A stretch of DNA of 11,069 nucleotides, from contig JADHWK010000068.1 in assembly GCA_016783505.1 (NCBI GenBank), positions 1 to 11,069 on the forward strand, in the 5' to 3' direction. Position 1 is the stretch's first letter. The number at the start of each line of letters is the position of its first letter. This document shows positions 2,847 to 10,742 of the stretch, piece by piece. This stretch comes from Candidatus Zhuqueibacterota bacterium (lineage in GTDB: Bacteria > BS750m-G25). The translations under genes were made by a program, and so were the position numbers. The notes under the pieces are model-generated. The model did not search any database and was not told the DNA's origin. It saw nothing but the letters and a program-made list of their open reading frames with translations.

Positions 2847-2900
2847 TTATCCACTAGTTAGATGAAATTGCTGCCCTTAGAAAACGAAAGGAGGTTTAAA

Positions 2901-3854
2901 ATGAAGCGTTTAATTATCATAATAGTAACAGTAGTCTTGGGCGTAACATTTTTAACAAGTTGTGCCCGAAAGCCAGAGAAAGTAAAAATCGGCTATCAAA
3001 AGACGGAAATCTACCAGCATTTCTTCACTGCGGTCGAAAGGGGATTCTTTAAAGCAGAAGGGGTTGAAGTTGAGCCAGTGGAGTTTGCCTCAGCGAACTT
3101 GATGGCCGAAGCTCTCATCGCGGGAAGAATTGATGGAACTGCTACCAGTGCTTTCCCTGTTATTTTTTCCGTCGAGCAGAATAATCCAGGACAGTTCAAG
3201 ATTTACATAGTTAACGTGATCACCGAAACTGCCTTCCCAGATTATATCTTGGTAAAGAAAGATTCAAAGATGAATAGCCTCTCGGAGCTCAAAGGGAAAA
3301 AGATAGGAACATACCCAGGCTCAACTATACTCACTTATACCAAAATTATTCTAAAACACTTTATGAATCCTGATGAGGATATTACGATAGTTCAACTTAA
3401 ACCTGTACTTCAGCTTCAAGCCCTTGAAACTGGCCAAGTAGATGCAATATTTGCTTTGGAGCCTATAGCCTCGGTGGGAATAGTGAGGGGTATTGCACGG
3501 GTGCTGGAGGAAGCACCCGTGGCCAAATATGTTATGGAGTCTCTCCCTGGGTCGGGCAGTACGTTCTCATCAAGGTTTCTGAAAAATTACCCTAAGGCCG
3601 CAGAAAAAGTAAAAAGGGCAATGTATCGAGCATTAGACTTTCTGAACGATCCTAAAAATATCGAGGAAGCTAGAAGTATACTTGGGGAATGGACAGAAAT
3701 AGATCCAGAGGTTATAGAAAGACTTCGACCCTTAAAATACTGGAAGCTGGAAGATATAGACCGAGGAGCGGTTCAGAAGCTTGCGGACCTACTTTTTGAA
3801 TGGGGTGCTTTAGAAAAGAAAATAGACACTTCTAATCTTTACTATGGCCAATAA
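2901..3854 (+). CDS. ABC transporter substrate-binding lipoprotein, NitT/TauT (SsuA/THI5-like) family
   Basis: This 317-residue protein should capture a small solute outside the membrane and deliver it to the permease encoded downstream. ATG 2901 is chosen over the in-frame ATG 2862 because AAAGGAGGT lies just before it and because it gives a clean lipoprotein signal: a basic start (MKR), a hydrophobic core (4-18) and the lipobox L18-T19-S20-C21. The mature part has the family's two-lobe periplasmic fold. An early GYQKTEIYQ strand is followed by a helix ending in ERGFFKAEGVEVE. LKGKKIGTYPGST (130-142) and ALETGQVDAIFALEP (174-188) are hallmark segments of NMT1/SsuA-type binding proteins. The family binds sulfonates, taurine, nitrate, thiamine precursors or riboflavin; the ligand here is unknown. 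It is the first gene of a likely six-gene operon. Confidence 0.87.
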   Translation: MKRLIIIIVTVVLGVTFLTSCARKPEKVKIGYQKTEIYQHFFTAVERGFFKAEGVEVEPVEFASANLMAEALIAGRIDGTATSAFPVIFSVEQNNPGQFKIYIVNVITETAFPDYILVKKDSKMNSLSELKGKKIGTYPGSTILTYTKIILKHFMNPDEDITIVQLKPVLQLQALETGQVDAIFALEPIASVGIVRGIARVLEEAPVAKYVMESLPGSGSTFSSRFLKNYPKAAEKVKRAMYRALDFLNDPKNIEEARSILGEWTEIDPEVIERLRPLKYWKLEDIDRGAVQKLADLLFEWGALEKKIDTSNLYYGQ

Positions 3855-3869
3855 AATAGGTTAACAAAA

Positions 3870-4646
3870 ATGGAGAATTCCGTAATTGTAAGAAATCTAT
3901 ACAAGTCCTTTCCAAAAGACATAAAAAAATCCTCATATGTATCGATCATTGAGGATGTCAGTATAGAGATCAAATCTGGTGAATTTGTTACGTTCTTTGG
4001 CCCAAATGGCTGTGGAAAGACTACATTTCTTAATGTCTTGTCCGGTTTGTTACCCCCAGACGAGGGTGAGATACTAATTCAAGGGAAAAATCCGGGTACA
4101 ACCAAAATAGGGTACATTTTTCAAAACTTTCCAGAGACTCTCTTCCCATGGCGGAAGAATATTGACAACATCGCCTTCCCTTTAGAGCTCAAAGGCATGT
4201 CAAAAGTTGAAAGATATAAGAATGTTATCGAGTTAGAGAGAAGTCTTGGAATAGAAATTGATAATGGTCTCTATCCTTATAAACTAAGTAGCGGCCAACA
4301 ACAACTTGTGGCGATAGCAAGAGCCCTTATTGATCAACCTTACGTCCTTCTAATGGATGAGCCATTTAATGCTTTAGACTTTCAAACCCGTGTGTTTGTG
4401 GAAGACAAGATATTGGACATTTGGGAAAAAACGAAGACTACGATACTGTTCGTTTCCCACGACATAGACGAGTCTATTTATTTAGCTGACAGAGTGGTTT
4501 TTTTTACCAAAATGCCGGCAAAAATAGCTTGTATAATGGAAGTTAATCTTCCCCGTCCGAGACACCAACAGATGATGACATCTAAGGAATTTTTTAGCCT
4601 GAGGAGCAAGGCGATAGAAATCTTTAGGAAGGTAATGGAGAGATGA
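3870..4646 (+). CDS. ABC transporter ATP-binding protein, NitT/TauT (SsuB/TauB) family
   Basis: This 258-residue cytoplasmic ATPase powers the importer. All core motifs are visible: Walker A GPNGCGKTT (44-52), Q-loop Gln85 in IFQNF, signature LSSGQQQ (139-145), Walker B VLLMDEP (159-165), D-loop ALD (168-170) and the switch His197 in VSHD. The signature reads LSSGQ rather than LSGGQ; the second Gly to Ser change is tolerated in many ABC proteins. The gene begins 15 bp after the binding-protein stop with only a weak ribosome site. Its last bases overlap the permease start (ATGA at 4643-4646), which indicates translational coupling. Together with genes 1 and 3 it forms a complete binding-protein-dependent importer. 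Confidence 0.92.
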   Translation: MENSVIVRNLYKSFPKDIKKSSYVSIIEDVSIEIKSGEFVTFFGPNGCGKTTFLNVLSGLLPPDEGEILIQGKNPGTTKIGYIFQNFPETLFPWRKNIDNIAFPLELKGMSKVERYKNVIELERSLGIEIDNGLYPYKLSSGQQQLVAIARALIDQPYVLLMDEPFNALDFQTRVFVEDKILDIWEKTKTTILFVSHDIDESIYLADRVVFFTKMPAKIACIMEVNLPRPRHQQMMTSKEFFSLRSKAIEIFRKVMER

Positions 4647-5386
4647 GAAAGGAACTTATTGTAGGCCCCATAGTATTTTTATTGATTTGGGCTCTTTTCA
4701 GTTACCTAAAAATCGTAAATCCAGTTCTAATTCCAACCCCATGGGCAGTAATAGTTAGATTTACTGAACTATTCTATAGGGGTGAGATTTGGGCAGATTT
4801 GCTTGCTACACTCTATAGGCTCTTGTTTGGATTTGCTTTGTCTATCGTCGTTGGAATTCCATTAGGTCTGATATTAGGCTCGTCAAAAAGGCTTTCGGAT
4901 TCCTTCGAGTTTCTTATTGATTTCTTCCGTTCAATCCCTGCTTCGGCACTTTTCCCTATGTTCTTACTTTTCTTTGGCATCGGTGATAAGGCGAAAGTTT
5001 CGGTAGTTGTTTTCTCCTGTTCTCTCATCATCATAATTTATACAATGTATGGGGTCAGAAATTGCAAAGAATCACGAATAAGAGTCGCTAAGGTTATGAA
5101 AGCAAATAAATTCTCCATATTTACTAAGGTGATTTTCCCAGAGTCATTACCTCATATCTTCGCTGGTGTGAGAATAAGCATTTCTATTGCTTTGATTCTG
5201 GTTGTTGTTACCGAGATGTTCATTGGAACCAAATATGGATTGGGTAGGTTAATATATGATTCTCACCTGATGTTTCGGCTCTCTACAATGTATGCGGCGA
5301 TCTTGATTGCTGGGATACTCGGTTATATGCTAAATAAGATATTTATGGTAGTGGAATCGAAGGTTTTTCATTGGGCTGGGAAGTAA
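4643..5386 (+). CDS. ABC transporter permease, NitT/TauT (SsuC/TauC) family
   Basis: This 247-residue inner-membrane protein forms, presumably as a homodimer, the channel for the substrate. About six hydrophobic helices are seen, near residues 7-24, 57-80, 98-115, 117-137, 173-195 and 214-236. The cytoplasmic EAA-type loop that docks onto the ATPase lies at about 147-170, ending in the expected ...FTKVIFPESLP. The start overlaps the ATPase stop by four bases. The stretches TPWAVIVRF and GIPLGLILGSS are typical of SsuC/TauC-like permeases. The stop is followed by a 6-bp gap and a radical SAM gene, so the importer is linked to the enzymes downstream. Confidence 0.9.
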   Translation: MRKELIVGPIVFLLIWALFSYLKIVNPVLIPTPWAVIVRFTELFYRGEIWADLLATLYRLLFGFALSIVVGIPLGLILGSSKRLSDSFEFLIDFFRSIPASALFPMFLLFFGIGDKAKVSVVVFSCSLIIIIYTMYGVRNCKESRIRVAKVMKANKFSIFTKVIFPESLPHIFAGVRISISIALILVVVTEMFIGTKYGLGRLIYDSHLMFRLSTMYAAILIAGILGYMLNKIFMVVESKVFHWAGK

Positions 5387-5392
5387 GGCTTT

Positions 5393-6262
5393 ATGGATGG
5401 CAAGCTAAAATTTGAGGAAGATAAGCTAAAAGGTAAGGTCATTGTGGTATCGCAAAAAGAAGAGATTTTTGCGGAGAACTACATCTGGAATTGCAAGAAT
5501 AAAGTGGTTTATGGTCCTATTCTATCCCGCAGACTTGGCAAGTCGCTGGGTATTAACCTTTTCCCCTCAGATTTTAATATCTGCACTTTCGACTGTATTT
5601 ATTGTGATTGTGGTCCTACAAAAAGAAACACGGTTAACACCTACAACTTTGCCTCCATGGAAAAGATTAAAGATGAGTTAGAACACTCATTTGAACACCA
5701 CTCGCAAAATCGGACTCCCATTGACTATATCACATTTGCAGGTAACGGAGAGCCGACTTACTATCCCTTCTTTCCTGAAATAGTGAACTTTGTATTAGAA
5801 TTACGAGATAAGTATTTCCCTCAAAAACCATTGGCTATATTCTCTAACGGGACGATGATATCCAAGCAGGAAGTTATCGAATCAATAGAAAAACTGGATG
5901 AAAGAATCTTCAAGCTCGATGCCGGAGATGAAAGGACATTCAAGTTAATCAGCCGGCCAAATAACAATGTTTCCTTTGAAGAGATTGTTGATAGACTTGC
6001 TAACTTAAAGGGAATAAAGATTTCCTCAGCAGTTCTCTGTTCGGGCATTAGGAACCTTGGTTCATTAAAGAATTGCGGTTATATCGAGGCACTGAAGAAA
6101 ATAGAGCCTCACGAGGTTCATCTCTATAGTATCGATTATCCACCAGCGTATCGGGGAATTAGACGAGCCAGAGTTTCAAAAATGCTCGAACTTGGCCAAT
6201 ATATAACCAGTAATATGGACATTGCAGTAAAAGTTCTTCGAGCAAGAAAGGCTTGGAGGTAG
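5393..6262 (+). CDS. Radical SAM protein of the COG0731 (TYW1-related) type
   Basis: This 289-residue enzyme should bind a [4Fe-4S] cluster and cleave S-adenosylmethionine to a 5'-deoxyadenosyl radical. The cluster motif is Cys64-x3-Cys68-x2-Cys71 (NICTFDCIYC), with an extra Cys73. It is preceded by GPILSRRLGKSLGIN (41-55), a lead-in characteristic of COG0731 proteins, which are often labelled wyosine synthetase-like. GNGEPT at 117-122 is the conserved SAM-contact region, and near the C-terminus LYSIDYPPAYRG matches the family's end. Bacteria generally do not make wyosine, so the true reaction is unknown. The first roughly 40 residues are a charged extension before the core. The gene starts 6 bp after the permease stop with AAGG upstream, and the next radical SAM gene begins 7 bp after it. 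Confidence 0.85.
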   Translation: MDGKLKFEEDKLKGKVIVVSQKEEIFAENYIWNCKNKVVYGPILSRRLGKSLGINLFPSDFNICTFDCIYCDCGPTKRNTVNTYNFASMEKIKDELEHSFEHHSQNRTPIDYITFAGNGEPTYYPFFPEIVNFVLELRDKYFPQKPLAIFSNGTMISKQEVIESIEKLDERIFKLDAGDERTFKLISRPNNNVSFEEIVDRLANLKGIKISSAVLCSGIRNLGSLKNCGYIEALKKIEPHEVHLYSIDYPPAYRGIRRARVSKMLELGQYITSNMDIAVKVLRARKAWR

Positions 6263-6269
6263 TAGAATA

Positions 6270-7640
6270 GTGAACATTTTATTAATACATCCCGATTTCA
6301 GACGTAATATAGAAATCCGAGACTATTGGGAAGGATTTAATCCTCCTTCACTGGTGGTAAATTATTTGGCTTCCATCCTTAAACAATACAATCATAGAGT
6401 AGTTGTTCTTGATTCCCTTTTTCAATTTTTCAGGACTGGCTTTAAGCGCGAAGTAGATCTATCAGATGGATTAGAAGACATGATAAAAGAAGAAAAAATA
6501 GAAGTTGTGGGTATGAGTGTTACTTCTCCTTCTCGATTAATTGCCCTAAATCTTGCTAGTGTAATTAAGAGGGTAAATCCACAAATAAAGATTATATGGG
6601 GTGGCCCTCATCCCACATTAGTAGGCGAAAGAATTTTGGAATATGAACCATTAATTGATTTTTTAATTTTGGGAGAGGGGGAAGATAATTTACCAGATTT
6701 GGTAAATGCCCTCGAGGAAAGAGATTTTAAAAGATTAGAAAAGATCGGTGGATTAGCATTTAGAAGGAACGGCGAAATTATTCGAACTCATGACAATCTT
6801 TCTATTCAGGATTTAGACATCTATCCTTTTACTGTTTATGACCAATATATAAAATTTGCACCACAAAAATCGTTAACGACTGTTTCGATAACTACAGTTC
6901 GTGGTTGTCCTTTCTATTGTAATTATTGTGGATCCAAGGTGATTTACAAGAGCAAGTCAAGAATGAGATCTATTGAGAATGTTATACAAGAAATTAAATA
7001 TTTAGCAGAAGAACATAAGATTAAAAGGATTCTATTTAACGATGAAACTTTTTCATTTCCTCTGGATCGTGCAAAAGCATTGCTTCGGGCTCTATCAGGT
7101 GAGAATATCCATCTTGAACTTGAATGCCAAACAAGGTTTGATGTTGTTGATAATGAATTTTTGAAGTGTTTTAAACAAGCAGGGGGGAGATCAATATTTT
7201 TTGGTATGGAATCCGGCTCGGAAAGGATTAGGGAATTAATGGGGAAAATCTCTTATATAAATAACAAGGTGGTAGAAATATCCCAACTGGTTAAGAAGCA
7301 TGGCATCCGATTAGGAATCCATACAATGTTCGGATATCCAACGGAAACACCGGAAGATATAAGGAAAACAGAAGAGATATTAGAGAAGGTAAAGCCACAT
7401 GAAATTACGGCCCACATCACCCATGTCCATCCTGGAACAAAAGTGTATAAGAATAGCGAATATACAATTGAGGATTGGCTCAAAAGAGATCGAGATTTCT
7501 TTCCTTATGAAACCTCAGCACGGAAATTAAGGGAATTGAGAAGAATCTGTAATTATTTTGAACAACGGTTTACTTCTAAGAGGACTGAGAGAAGCGGATT
7601 TCTTAGAGACTTTGGCTCAGCTATAGAAGTTGTGTATTAA
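6270..7640 (+). CDS. B12-binding-domain radical SAM protein (class B type)
   Basis: This 456-residue protein has an N-terminal Rossmann-like cobalamin-binding domain (about 1-145), with MNILLIHPDF at the start, then VVGMSVTSP and IIWGGPHPTL...ILGEGE. It is followed by a radical SAM core with Cys213-x3-Cys217-x2-Cys220 (VRGCPFYCNYC). Further core landmarks are FNDETF (256-261), GMESGSE (312-318) and FGYPTET (354-360). No DxHxxG cobalamin motif is seen, which is usual for this class. The start is GTG at 6270, chosen because GGAGG (6255-6259) sits 10 bases upstream. Relatives methylate unactivated carbons or rearrange rings (BchE, hopanoid methylases, natural-product methylases); the reaction here is unknown. 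It sits in the same operon as the importer and the other radical SAM gene, suggesting they act on one pathway. Confidence 0.88.
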   Translation: MNILLIHPDFRRNIEIRDYWEGFNPPSLVVNYLASILKQYNHRVVVLDSLFQFFRTGFKREVDLSDGLEDMIKEEKIEVVGMSVTSPSRLIALNLASVIKRVNPQIKIIWGGPHPTLVGERILEYEPLIDFLILGEGEDNLPDLVNALEERDFKRLEKIGGLAFRRNGEIIRTHDNLSIQDLDIYPFTVYDQYIKFAPQKSLTTVSITTVRGCPFYCNYCGSKVIYKSKSRMRSIENVIQEIKYLAEEHKIKRILFNDETFSFPLDRAKALLRALSGENIHLELECQTRFDVVDNEFLKCFKQAGGRSIFFGMESGSERIRELMGKISYINNKVVEISQLVKKHGIRLGIHTMFGYPTETPEDIRKTEEILEKVKPHEITAHITHVHPGTKVYKNSEYTIEDWLKRDRDFFPYETSARKLRELRRICNYFEQRFTSKRTERSGFLRDFGSAIEVVY

Positions 7641-7659
7641 GAATGAAAGGTAAACAACC

Positions 7660-8292
7660 ATGTCAGATTTTGACAAGAAAAAACAAAAGGAGATAATTCT
7701 ACCGCAACTTTATGAATTAATACGGCACACTGCTACTCGACGACATACGTATCTGAATATATACTTGTTGATCCTTGGGGCATACTTAGCCGCCGTTATA
7801 AGAATTCTTACAGATAATGGCTTCCCGATCTGGGGAGTATTCCAACAACTTTTGGGCTGGGGAGCAGTGGTTATATTCTTTATCACTTTAGTATTCTTAT
7901 TCATATCTCTAAGACATATCGCCTTTTTGGAGACTTTTCGAGACAATATAAAATCCATAACAGGAGAAAGTAATGATGGAGGCGAAAGTAATAATGAAGA
8001 TAAGGAGAGGAAATCAATTTTTGGTAAAGTTGAGAAGTTTTTTGAGAAACGAAAGATAGAGATACGAGAAGGACATCTGGTAATATTTATGAAATTCGTC
8101 TTTATGTTAGTACTTATCTCGACTACTCTAATTATTTACAACGGTGAGGTACTATTATTGCCATTCATAATTGAGATTATACTTTTAGGTATTTCGATTT
8201 TCTCCGTACGTTATAGGAAACTTTTCTTCAGGCCTCCTAAAACATTCTTGGTACCAAGACAGTTGTTAAATCATTCTAAGAGATCAAAATAA
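7660..8292 (+). CDS. Hypothetical membrane protein with four transmembrane helices
   Basis: This 210-residue protein is not recognised. It has two helix pairs: about 31-50 and 64-83, then 140-160 and 163-183. A soluble, highly charged loop separates them (about 95-138), beginning with a Ser/Asn/Gly/Glu-rich stretch and continuing with K/E/F-rich helix. N- and C-termini are basic and probably cytoplasmic. AAAGG (7646-7650) lies 9 bases before the ATG. It begins 19 bp after the radical SAM stop and appears to be the last gene of the operon. It might be a scaffold, a sensor or a membrane anchor for the pathway; nothing in the sequence decides this. The 3' end abuts a truncated helix-turn-helix gene on the opposite strand, so the C-terminus may lie at a recombination junction. 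Confidence 0.75.
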   Translation: MSDFDKKKQKEIILPQLYELIRHTATRRHTYLNIYLLILGAYLAAVIRILTDNGFPIWGVFQQLLGWGAVVIFFITLVFLFISLRHIAFLETFRDNIKSITGESNDGGESNNEDKERKSIFGKVEKFFEKRKIEIREGHLVIFMKFVFMLVLISTTLIIYNGEVLLLPFIIEIILLGISIFSVRYRKLFFRPPKTFLVPRQLLNHSKRSK

Positions 8293-8369
8293 GCAAGTTT
8301 ATATAGGGTTGAGGCGCCTGTCTTGAGGTACTTAGCGACTTCTTCTATAGTCATTATTTCTTCAGCCAT
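8271..8369 (-). pseudogene. Truncated excisionase/helix-turn-helix (HTH_17-like) gene, 5' remnant
   Basis: Reading the minus strand from ATG at 8369 gives 32 residues, with MTIEEVAKYLKTGASTLYKLA inside it apart from the first five. This matches the start of small excisionase/MerR-like DNA-binding domains (first helix EEVAKYL, turn, recognition helix STLYKLA). Normally a further 30 or more residues follow, with a wing and a basic end. Here the frame runs into bases belonging to the membrane protein's 3' end and stops at 8271. A GGGG-containing ribosome site precedes the ATG. The 5' part looks intact and the rest has been replaced, so this is best called a broken gene. Similar proteins serve as excisionases, antitoxins or regulators of small mobile loci. 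Confidence 0.55.
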
Positions 8370-8444
8370 AGTACCCCATCTTGTAATCAAAAAAATTACC
8401 AATATTTAGCAACAAATAAAATTAATAAATGGTTTAGAAAATAG

Positions 8445-8570
8445 CAAAAACTGGAAGCAATATCAGGGGCAAATAAGATAAGGTTCTGGAGGGATAAAGG
8501 AAGGGGAAATTTAGAAGATGCAGATCTACTTTTAGGATACGATAAAGACGATTATGAAGAATGGAACTAA
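8445..8570 (+). pseudogene. Possible antitoxin remnant (VapB-like position), 3' part only
   Basis: The frame is open for 41 codons before the stop at 8568-8570 and is closed upstream by a TAG at 8442, with no plausible start. The residues (ending LEDADLLLGYDKDDYEEWN) are acidic and protein-like, but the family is not recognised. The call rests on arrangement: its stop overlaps by 17 bases the start of a short frame with a PIN-domain-like beginning, which is the layout of vapBC pairs. Decay is inferred from the missing N-terminus. Confidence 0.3.
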
Positions 8571-8706
8571 TACTTTGCTGGACACTAGAACTTTCTTGGC
8601 GAAAAACAGATTAAACATTTGGCAATGTTATCTAGGGAAGCTTCGCCTAAAACCGACGAGGTGTGAGAAACATAAATTGGGAGAAACTTCGAATTGCAAA
8701 ATATAA
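8554..8706 (+). pseudogene. Possible VapC-type PIN-domain toxin remnant
   Basis: ATG at 8554 opens a 50-codon frame. Its first residues, MKNGTNTLLDTRTFLAKN, resemble the start of PIN-domain ribonucleases, in which a hydrophobic strand leads to the first metal-binding Asp (here Asp10 in LLDT). An intact toxin would be about 130 residues with three or more further acidic residues. Here the resemblance fades after about 18 residues, and the frame runs into the A+T-rich repeat and stops. Another frame (stop at 8664-8666) carries protein-like residues IKHLAMLSREA, so a frameshift or internal deletion may have occurred. Weak but specific because of the overlapping upstream frame. Confidence 0.35.
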
Positions 8707-8824
8707 AATGCAAAGTACAAAAGTCAAAATTACTTTTTCTTTCCTTACGGGTTCGTTAAGGCAACCTCCTGCCTTTCATTTTGCATTTTTTCCCGAAATT
8801 TCGGGACATTCTGCATTTTGCATT
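8692..8824. repeat. A+T-rich inverted dispersed repeat with a central palindrome
   Basis: The left part (8692-8715) reads like AATTGCAAAATATAAAATG. The right part repeats CATTTTGCATTTT (8776-8788) and CATTCTGCATTTTGCATT (8807-8824), which are imperfect reverse complements of the left. The perfect palindrome TCCCGAAATTTCGGGA (8791-8806) lies between the two right copies. The whole could fold as a long imperfect stem. It looks like a non-coding dispersed repeat or miniature element; copy number cannot be judged from one window. Confidence 0.45.
8791..8806. repeat. Perfect 16-bp palindrome TCCCGAAATTTCGGGA
   Basis: Second copy of the TCCCGA-NNNN-TCGGGA family in this window, perfect over 16 bp, differing from the 605-620 copy only in its central bases. 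It is followed after five bases by TGCATTTT, and the third copy (10787-10802) is also followed closely by TGCATTTT. Confidence 0.6.
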
Positions 8825-8880
8825 AGACGTTTTCAAAAGCTTGACTCATTCGTTAAGAAGTCGCCTTATGAAGACGTCTA
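8824..8880. promoter_or_regulatory. Inverted repeat TAGACGT/ACGTCTA bracketing a possible promoter for the GHKL ATPase
   Basis: TAGACGT at 8824-8830 and ACGTCTA at 8874-8880 are perfect inverted copies 43 bp apart. Between them lies TTGACT (8841-8846), a fair -35 box, with TTATGA (8866-8871) as a poor -10 box at a long 19-bp spacing. The ATPase start is 45 bp after the right arm. This could be a regulated promoter, but 7-bp arms can occur by chance. Confidence 0.22.
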
Positions 8881-8924
8881 GTTATACGTCATGCAGTATC
8901 TAAAAATCCAAGGGAGTTGGAACC

Positions 8925-10742
8925 ATGAAAAAAAGGCCAGTTAATCTTGAAAGAAGTGATGCCAACATTGCTGAACAATATACAAATATTTATGATGGAT
9001 TACAAAAAGATGCTGCGCAGAATTCTTGGGATGCACGAACTACTAAAAAAGGCAATGACTGGAGACTGGTTTTCAAATATATTCATGACCGTGATATTCT
9101 GGTTATTGAAGATTTCGGGACGACAGGAATGGATTTAAAAAAATGGGTTGCCTATCAGAGTTTATGGGATACCTCAAAAGTTGATGAAGAAACTCTCGGT
9201 GCAAGGGGACAAGGTAAGTTCTTATTTCATTACTTTTCCAAGGACAAGGTTGTGTTGACAGAAACAATCGACAAAAATGGAAATTACAGGTTCTCGTATG
9301 GAACAGCGGAAGAGTGGGATGATGAAACCAGAAAACTTCAGGATTTTATTCCCGGAGCGTCTCCTCTGCAACATCAGGGCACGGGTATATGGATAATGAA
9401 TATCAAACCTGAATTTAAGGATGAACTACTTGACTATAGATCATTTATGAAATACATAACTTCTACTTGGTGGGAGATTATTCGAAACGATAGCGCCACT
9501 TTTATTGTAAATTTTGATGGAGTTGATAGACAGGCAACATTACCTGACTTACCTGAAGTTCTAAAAGAAAAACATTTGGAGAATGAAAGAATAAAAGACA
9601 TCGGGCAAATTCGCAACCTTGTTTTGAAGTATTGTAAAGAGGATGTCCCTGAAGGATTTAGAGGAATTGCCATACAAAGAGGCGGAATGACCATTTTGAG
9701 GCTTCAAGTTGGTGCAGAGGAATCTATAAAAAACAGGGTGTACGGTTACTGCAATTTTGATGACGATCTGGAGATGGAACTTAAAAAGTGCGAAATGCCA
9801 AACCATTTTGGTTTCTTCAACAAAAAACCGTGGAACCATGTCAGAGAGTACGTTAGAAAGAAACTGGATGATTTTTTGCTGGAGATAACGCCCAAAAAAG
9901 AAAAAATAAAAATTGAAGCAAACATCCTTGAGGAAGCAGTAAAACTTGTAAATGATTTGGTAAGCGAATATGCTCCGGAGTTGCTTGCCGGACCGCCAGC
10001 AAAAGGAGGAAAGGGAGAAGAACCAAAAAAACCGGTTGAACCAAGAGAAGTACTGCCAGTACGTATTGATCTCTTTAGATCGAATCAATATAAATTTGAA
10101 TATAACGAAACTCTAATTATAGACTGTGAAATTGCAAATGATACGGGAGATGAGAAAAATTTGCTTTTTAAACTTACTATCAAACATGTCGGTGGTAGCG
10201 AAAAGCACAAATCAAGATATACCCTGAGCATATCCGCACATACTAGAAAAAAGATAGATATTCAACTTATCGACTTTGATGAGAAAAAAGATAAGGCTGG
10301 AGAATATACTGTTGAAGGAATTCTCATTAATGAAGATACAAATGAGCAACTTCATAAGAGGAAGTTTACATTTTATCTACACGAAGAACCACCCAGAAAA
10401 GGTAAGGCATTTGTGGCAAAATTTGATTTCCTTCTTGGCAAAAAAACCGATGGTACTTTGCAATATTATGCAAAGTGGAAAAATCTTCCGATAACAGAAA
10501 AAGGAATCATTTGGGTAGTGTACGACCATTCGGAGTTCGTCAGACTCAGGGAGATTGCGGGCACTAAAAAAGGAAAGAAAAGGGAGATTCTTCTCTATTG
10601 TGCTCGATGTGGTATTGACGAAGCCTTTCGGAAATTGCTTGAACTAAGATACACGGACGATACACTTGACCTTGATAAGATAAGGGAAATTAAAAATTCA
10701 TGCGAAGAGATGTTATATGAAGCATCTCTAAGAACGATATAG
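8925..10742 (+). CDS. GHKL (gyrase/Hsp90/histidine kinase/MutL-type) ATPase with C-terminal Ig-like region
   Basis: This 605-residue cytoplasmic protein begins with a GHKL ATP-binding fold. The N-box-like stretch is DAAQNSWDAR (29-38, with Asn33 and Asp36), the G1-like motif is EDFGTTGM (62-69), the G2/lid-like motif is GARGQGKF (92-99), and GTGIWI (152-157) follows. The usual catalytic Glu four residues before Asn33 is Asp29. A second alpha/beta segment continues to about 350, then a Gly/Lys/Pro-rich linker (354-377). A beta-strand-rich region (378-487) resembles an immunoglobulin-like sandwich, and an unrecognised C-terminal domain (493-605) contains a Cys-x2-Cys pair (559, 562). AGGGAG (8911-8916) precedes the ATG. 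It is not a histidine kinase: no phospho-acceptor helix or sensor is seen. Stand-alone GHKL/MORC-like ATPases occur in prokaryotic conflict systems, and the surrounding remnants and IS fit that, but no partner nuclease or methylase is adjacent. Exact family not recognised. Confidence 0.75.
   Translation: MKKRPVNLERSDANIAEQYTNIYDGLQKDAAQNSWDARTTKKGNDWRLVFKYIHDRDILVIEDFGTTGMDLKKWVAYQSLWDTSKVDEETLGARGQGKFLFHYFSKDKVVLTETIDKNGNYRFSYGTAEEWDDETRKLQDFIPGASPLQHQGTGIWIMNIKPEFKDELLDYRSFMKYITSTWWEIIRNDSATFIVNFDGVDRQATLPDLPEVLKEKHLENERIKDIGQIRNLVLKYCKEDVPEGFRGIAIQRGGMTILRLQVGAEESIKNRVYGYCNFDDDLEMELKKCEMPNHFGFFNKKPWNHVREYVRKKLDDFLLEITPKKEKIKIEANILEEAVKLVNDLVSEYAPELLAGPPAKGGKGEEPKKPVEPREVLPVRIDLFRSNQYKFEYNETLIIDCEIANDTGDEKNLLFKLTIKHVGGSEKHKSRYTLSISAHTRKKIDIQLIDFDEKKDKAGEYTVEGILINEDTNEQLHKRKFTFYLHEEPPRKGKAFVAKFDFLLGKKTDGTLQYYAKWKNLPITEKGIIWVVYDHSEFVRLREIAGTKKGKKREILLYCARCGIDEAFRKLLELRYTDDTLDLDKIREIKNSCEEMLYEASLRTI

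Follow-up and report, generated by a model that had tools for sequence, protein, structure and literature searches.

What joins a complete small-molecule importer to two radical SAM enzymes, and does the gene set amount to one pathway or to a chance neighbourhood? The window, meaning the whole stretch of DNA analysed here, is one entire contig of 11,069 bases from a Candidatus Zhuqueibacterota MAG that is 60% complete, and the features under discussion are the following:

2901..3854, + strand: SBP, lipoprotein substrate-binding protein of the NMT1/SsuA type, part of a NitT/TauT importer (Pfam NMT1_2, 3e-22)
3870..4646, + strand: ATP, importer ATPase (Pfam ABC_tran, 4e-29)
4643..5386, + strand: PERM, importer permease (Pfam BPD_transp_1, 8e-23)
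5393..6262, + strand: RS1, radical SAM protein of the TYW1-like (COG0731-type) group, importer-linked subfamily (Pfam Radical_SAM, 1e-13)
6270..7640, + strand: RS2, B12-binding radical SAM protein of an operon-specific clade, GTG start (Pfam B12-binding, 2e-18; Radical_SAM, 3e-20)
7660..8292, + strand: MEM, membrane protein (about four hydrophobic segments by hydropathy), without family
2881..6256, + strand: importer and RS1 core, a DNA homology block matching positions 5487-8864 of the Ca. Stahlbacteria locus L022 at 83% (blastn, single block)

The first-pass annotation had described a compact six-gene operon on one strand, with gaps of 6–19 bp, composed of a complete NitT/TauT-type importer, radical SAM proteins including one with a B12 domain, and a four-helix membrane protein, and this description agrees well with our results. 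All six ORFs lie on the + strand, the NMT1-like SBP, the BPD_transp_1 permease and the ABC ATPase score above the Pfam gathering thresholds and together form a NitT/TauT-type importer in the broad sense, RS2 has a B12-binding domain at its N-terminus (PF02310, 67 vs 32 bits) in addition to Radical_SAM, and MEM has the expected hydrophobic segments. The intergenic gaps from SBP through ATP, PERM, RS1 and RS2 to MEM are 15, −4, 6, 7 and 19 bp, and the quoted range is true for the genes after the importer (6, 7 and 19 bp). We placed the SBP start at 2901, which has AGGAGG in front, 2862 being merely the start of the longest ORF; the protein carries a lipobox-like LTSC. Separating promoters or terminators would speak against a single operon. 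Two terminator-like sites were found vs 5.8 expected, none of them between operon genes and the sole one within the operon (6887) lying inside RS2, and promoter-like sites were no more frequent than in shuffled sequences. Riboswitch control was rejected: nothing in the window reached the gathering threshold in riboswitch scans, and the sequence ahead of the operon in the window and L022 returned only a microRNA match attributable to chance.

The operon has a G+C content of 38% vs 53% for the upstream genes, with the shift at the upstream edge. These upstream genes include 2-oxoacid:ferredoxin oxidoreductase subunits and one gene that, reading by eye, we take to be an acyl-CoA dehydrogenase. 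As one whole contig of a MAG that is 60% complete, the window may have been misbinned or joined in assembly. Because the operons in two further genomes (L022 and L059, described below) are independent, the core unit is safe from this worry, a safeguard that does not extend to the junctions of RS2 and MEM in the window.

The first-pass annotation had named a gene-neighbourhood survey as its check, and this survey recovered the same order, importer-RS1-(...)-RS2, in two other genomes. Scanning genome contigs with RS1 returned one relative, at locus L022 in a Ca. Stahlbacteria MAG; a second (genome G173, locus L059) came from searching 147 genomes of this phylum, for three operons in total including the window. 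In L022, SBP-ATP-PERM-RS1 is followed by a cupin and then by a B12-radical SAM protein, and its RS1 is fused at the C-terminus to a class I methyltransferase (8001-9551, 516 aa), an enlarged version of the operon; L059 has the same gene order as the window up to its contig end, which falls inside RS2. Identities to the window are 85% (SBP), 84% (ATP), 89% (PERM), 74% (RS1) and 39% (RS2) in L022, and 63%, 53%, 62%, 49% and 34%, respectively, in L059. Since the order recurs in two other genomes, it is beyond chance, and since it is kept while identity of the importer and RS1 in L059 drops to 49–63%, the synteny is older than a long divergence. Genes are tightly spaced or overlapping in all three operons. 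Between the window and L022, dN/dS values of 0.12 (SBP), 0.10 (ATP), 0.06 (PERM) and 0.19 (RS1) reflect purifying selection, and these four genes are therefore in use. L022 and L059 share a phylum to which the window genome, the sole representative of its own phylum among the genomes surveyed, does not belong, so that at least two phyla carry the operon. It is nonetheless rare: no further operon was present in samples of 386 and 389 genomes, which partly overlap. The earlier claim of one operon thus stands for the importer-RS1-RS2 unit, found in three genomes, and is not supported for MEM, which is absent from L022.

RS1 has the Radical_SAM domain and the CX3CX2C motif (C64/C68/C71) of the radical SAM superfamily. 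Its COG0731-type label was judged via weak matches to TYW1 and viperin models, not via COG models, and both miss their cutoffs: 32 vs 318 bits for TYW1 (TIGR03972, 5e-8) and 32 vs 180 bits for prokaryotic viperin (NF038283). In the tree, the three operon RS1 proteins formed one clade (100/100) apart from 33 others. Cys34, Cys73 and Cys216 are invariant in these three and occur in only 0, 2 and 0 of the 33 others, respectively. With CX3CX2C and three further invariant cysteines, RS1 resembles enzymes such as MoaA and TYW1, in which three cysteines hold a second [4Fe-4S] cluster whose free iron site binds the substrate or co-substrate (PMC5352715). By analogy, an auxiliary [4Fe-4S] cluster, with one iron site left open for substrate, may be ligated by Cys34, Cys73 and Cys216 of RS1. 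However, the spacing of the extra cysteines fits neither MoaA nor a known TYW1 motif, RS1 sits with an importer and not with tRNA modification genes, and the AF2 model (pLDDT 44) is too weak for cluster geometry. More general relatives of RS1, at up to 41% identity, lie away from importers: at 1e-25 they are present in 92 of the 147 genomes of the L022 phylum, and among the best 30 loci only L029 (= L022) and L030 (= L059) have an importer alongside, the other 28 having no importer genes within flanks of about 1.5 kb. The objection that RS1 homologues might usually be found apart from the importer does not hold for close homologues, which form a distinct, importer-linked subfamily.

RS2 likewise has a CX3CX2C motif (C213/C217/C220) that places it in the radical SAM superfamily. 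Methyl transfer via methylcobalamin is the defining activity of B12-radical SAM methyltransferases. RS2 shares its domain order, B12-binding then Radical_SAM, with class B radical SAM enzymes (ApyD, BchE, PhpK, HpnJ, AprD4, CysS), but it scores far below all subfamily cutoffs (best, 179 of 750 bits) and falls into a clade of its own. The three operon RS2 proteins form this one clade (100/100), with L022 and L059 grouped inside it and an RTGF motif at 55-58. At 1e-75, the window RS2 had no match in 371 genomes except in the genome of L022 (3e-104), and since it is the closest relative found for the other operon RS2 proteins, the reading of RS2 as an unrelated neighbour was rejected.

At RS2 the relationship between the operons changes abruptly. 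DNA homology between the window and L022 stops at the last codons of RS1 (blastn), and while the importers of these two are 84–89% identical, their RS2 proteins share only 39%; between L022 and L059, the importer is at 56–61% and RS2 at 51%. An RS2 tree forced to group the window with L022 was rejected (p-AU 0.044). The importer trees favour that grouping, the opposite one giving p-AU values of 0.11 and 0.064, and because these are not significant, the conflict between importer and RS2 rests mainly on the identity figures. The simplest reading of these sequences is that in the window the original RS2 apparently gave way to a different protein of this operon-specific family, the alternative being very fast change in place.

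The nature of the imported molecule can be narrowed only in part. SBP matches the alkanesulfonate importers SsuABC/TauABC in binding-protein family and fold class and in the three-gene importer, and SsuA_fam is its best NCBIfam subfamily match, but it misses the cutoffs of both SsuA_fam (TIGR01728, 121 vs 163.5 bits) and TauA (TIGR01729, 28 vs 304 bits), and its companions are radical SAM enzymes. The sulfonate is contacted by Gln36, Gly68, Gly86 and Ser141 in SsuA (PMC3839906) and by Gln30, Gly61, Gly79 and Thr132 in TauA (PMC6906117). Aligned with these are Gln33, Ala65, Ser83 and Thr142 of SBP, so that two of the four positions (Gln33 and Thr142) are kept and both glycines are replaced; SsuA Trp185 aligns with Leu186. 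The AF2 model of SBP (pLDDT 58) is too weak for pocket work, and a fold search with this low-confidence model ranked SsuA bound to MOPS or MES at the top, ahead of TauA, Thi5, PqqT and others. An anionic ligand is plausible from sequence, while a plain alkanesulfonate goes beyond what sequence supports.

The best NCBIfam matches of ATP and PERM are SaoA and SaoP of the SAO (Sec-assisted organometallic) importer SaoXAP. These reach only about half of their cutoffs (207 of 360 and 156 of 295 bits, with SaoX at 37 of 300), and SaoL, SaoC and SaoT genes are lacking from the window. SAO membership was rejected on these scores and on the likeness being common to the whole importer clade, including Cupriavidus, cyanobacterial and other relatives. 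Each part of the gene set belongs to a known family, and the set as a whole is unnamed: literature searches gave no named system with this combination of genes, as the first-pass annotation had supposed.

Related importers have other companions. In the next-nearest (L069, 3-7157), a U32-family gene separates SBP from ATPase; another U32 gene and one for an isochorismatase-type protein also belong to this locus, which is adjoined by a phage portal gene (7960). In another (L063), a carbon-nitrogen hydrolase gene lies near one for nitrile hydratase, a third (L028) adjoins an ORF that, read by eye, is presumably amidase-like, and two (L075 and L076) have no obvious partner gene. Behind a distant importer (L077, 3441-13329) comes a gene for a small methyltransferase, and the neighbourhood also encodes a HerA-like ATPase and two large orphan proteins. 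The window's own genome also encodes two tandem stand-alone NMT1-like binding proteins by a histidine kinase and response regulators (L061, 2588-4635), which are perhaps sensory rather than transport proteins.

MEM is probably not part of the gene set. It had no match in family models, neither plasmids nor viral contigs contained a relative, and it has no counterpart behind RS2 in L022, the L059 contig ending within RS2. Downstream of it, only the beginning of an excisionase-like helix-turn-helix gene (MAEEIMTIEEVAKYLKTGASTLYKLA) is left, on the − strand at 8293-8384, cut short close to where MEM ends; this is a mobile-element remnant. It is followed by a gene for a 605-aa protein with GHKL-ATPase-like motifs (NSWDA, IEDFGTTG, GARGQG; 8925-10742), without family or PADLOC match and without plasmid relative, and by a transposase gene with an HTH_Tnp_1 domain that runs off the contig end (10858-11069). 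Directly behind the L022 operon (11424-15589) are conflict-type genes for an HD-CE protein, an HNH_5 endonuclease and a KAP P-loop NTPase (PADLOC PifA match). A defence role was set aside: neither MEM nor the 605-aa protein matched PADLOC; some L022 neighbours do match, and the HerA-like ATPase of L077 stands beside a distant importer only. Viral carriage was rejected as well, viral contigs holding no relative of RS1, RS2, MEM or SBP and the only permease match being L069, which has U32 genes instead.

These surroundings bear on whether the operon merely hitch-hikes in a variable, mobile-element-rich region, its importer and radical enzymes having unrelated roles. The IS transposase, the truncated excisionase-like gene and the conflict-type genes near the operon in the window and L022 fit such a scenario, as does the drop in G+C at the upstream edge, but the order is kept in three genomes down to 49% identity with tight or overlapping genes throughout, and the genes are under purifying selection; we regard it as very unlikely. 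The link between importer, RS1 and RS2 is well supported, and we infer that the three likely share a pathway, although their co-location falls short of proving a shared substrate.

What that pathway does could be read in other ways. Plain nutrition, in which for example a sulfonate or amide would supply sulfur or nitrogen, with the radical enzymes degrading the compound without oxygen in place of aerobic oxygenases, draws on the nearness of SBP to SsuA-type models, on the retained Gln33 and Thr142 and on the degradative genes beside related importers (the hydrolase near nitrile hydratase and the amidase-like ORF). We consider it rather unlikely, given the two changed glycines of the sulfonate site and a methyltransferase and cupin in L022 that are atypical of degradation, and we know of no B12-radical SAM enzyme for desulfonation. 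That same methyltransferase and cupin fit tailoring better than the import of a cofactor or precursor that RS1 and RS2 would complete or need, such as a corrinoid lower-ligand base or thiamin pyrimidine. In favour of the latter, the fold search listed Thi5, PqqT and a FAMP-binding protein below SsuA, and RS2 matched the model of BzaD, of B12 lower-ligand synthesis, at 4e-27; however, every one of these matches either falls far short of its model cutoff or derives from the low-confidence SBP model, and the riboswitch scans were empty, making a cofactor role improbable.

On balance, we favour a horizontally moving uptake-and-modify operon with a constant importer and RS1 core and a variable tailoring tail. 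The SBP lipoprotein would capture a small molecule, probably with an anionic group, which ATPase and permease would carry inside, and RS1 and the B12-dependent RS2 would then alter that molecule, as their substrate, or a product made from it, in a pathway that may serve salvage or biosynthesis. The tailoring genes behind the constant part would differ between operons in RS2 type, fused methyltransferase and cupin. Judging from the oxygen-sensitive enzyme families, the host bacteria are most likely anaerobic. A more specific version, which we put forward tentatively and think possible though doubtful, is an anaerobic cassette in which the importer and RS1, with its substrate-binding second cluster, stay constant while B12-radical SAM, methyltransferase and cupin genes are exchanged between lineages and phyla, giving different products from one imported scaffold. 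With two radical SAM subfamilies tied to a binding protein whose ligand could be found by simple binding assays, the operon offers a direct path to the substrate of enzymes whose roles are difficult to pin down by other means, and a change of tail behind a constant core, across two phyla, would suggest that oxygen-independent chemistry is exchangeable in uncultured bacteria.
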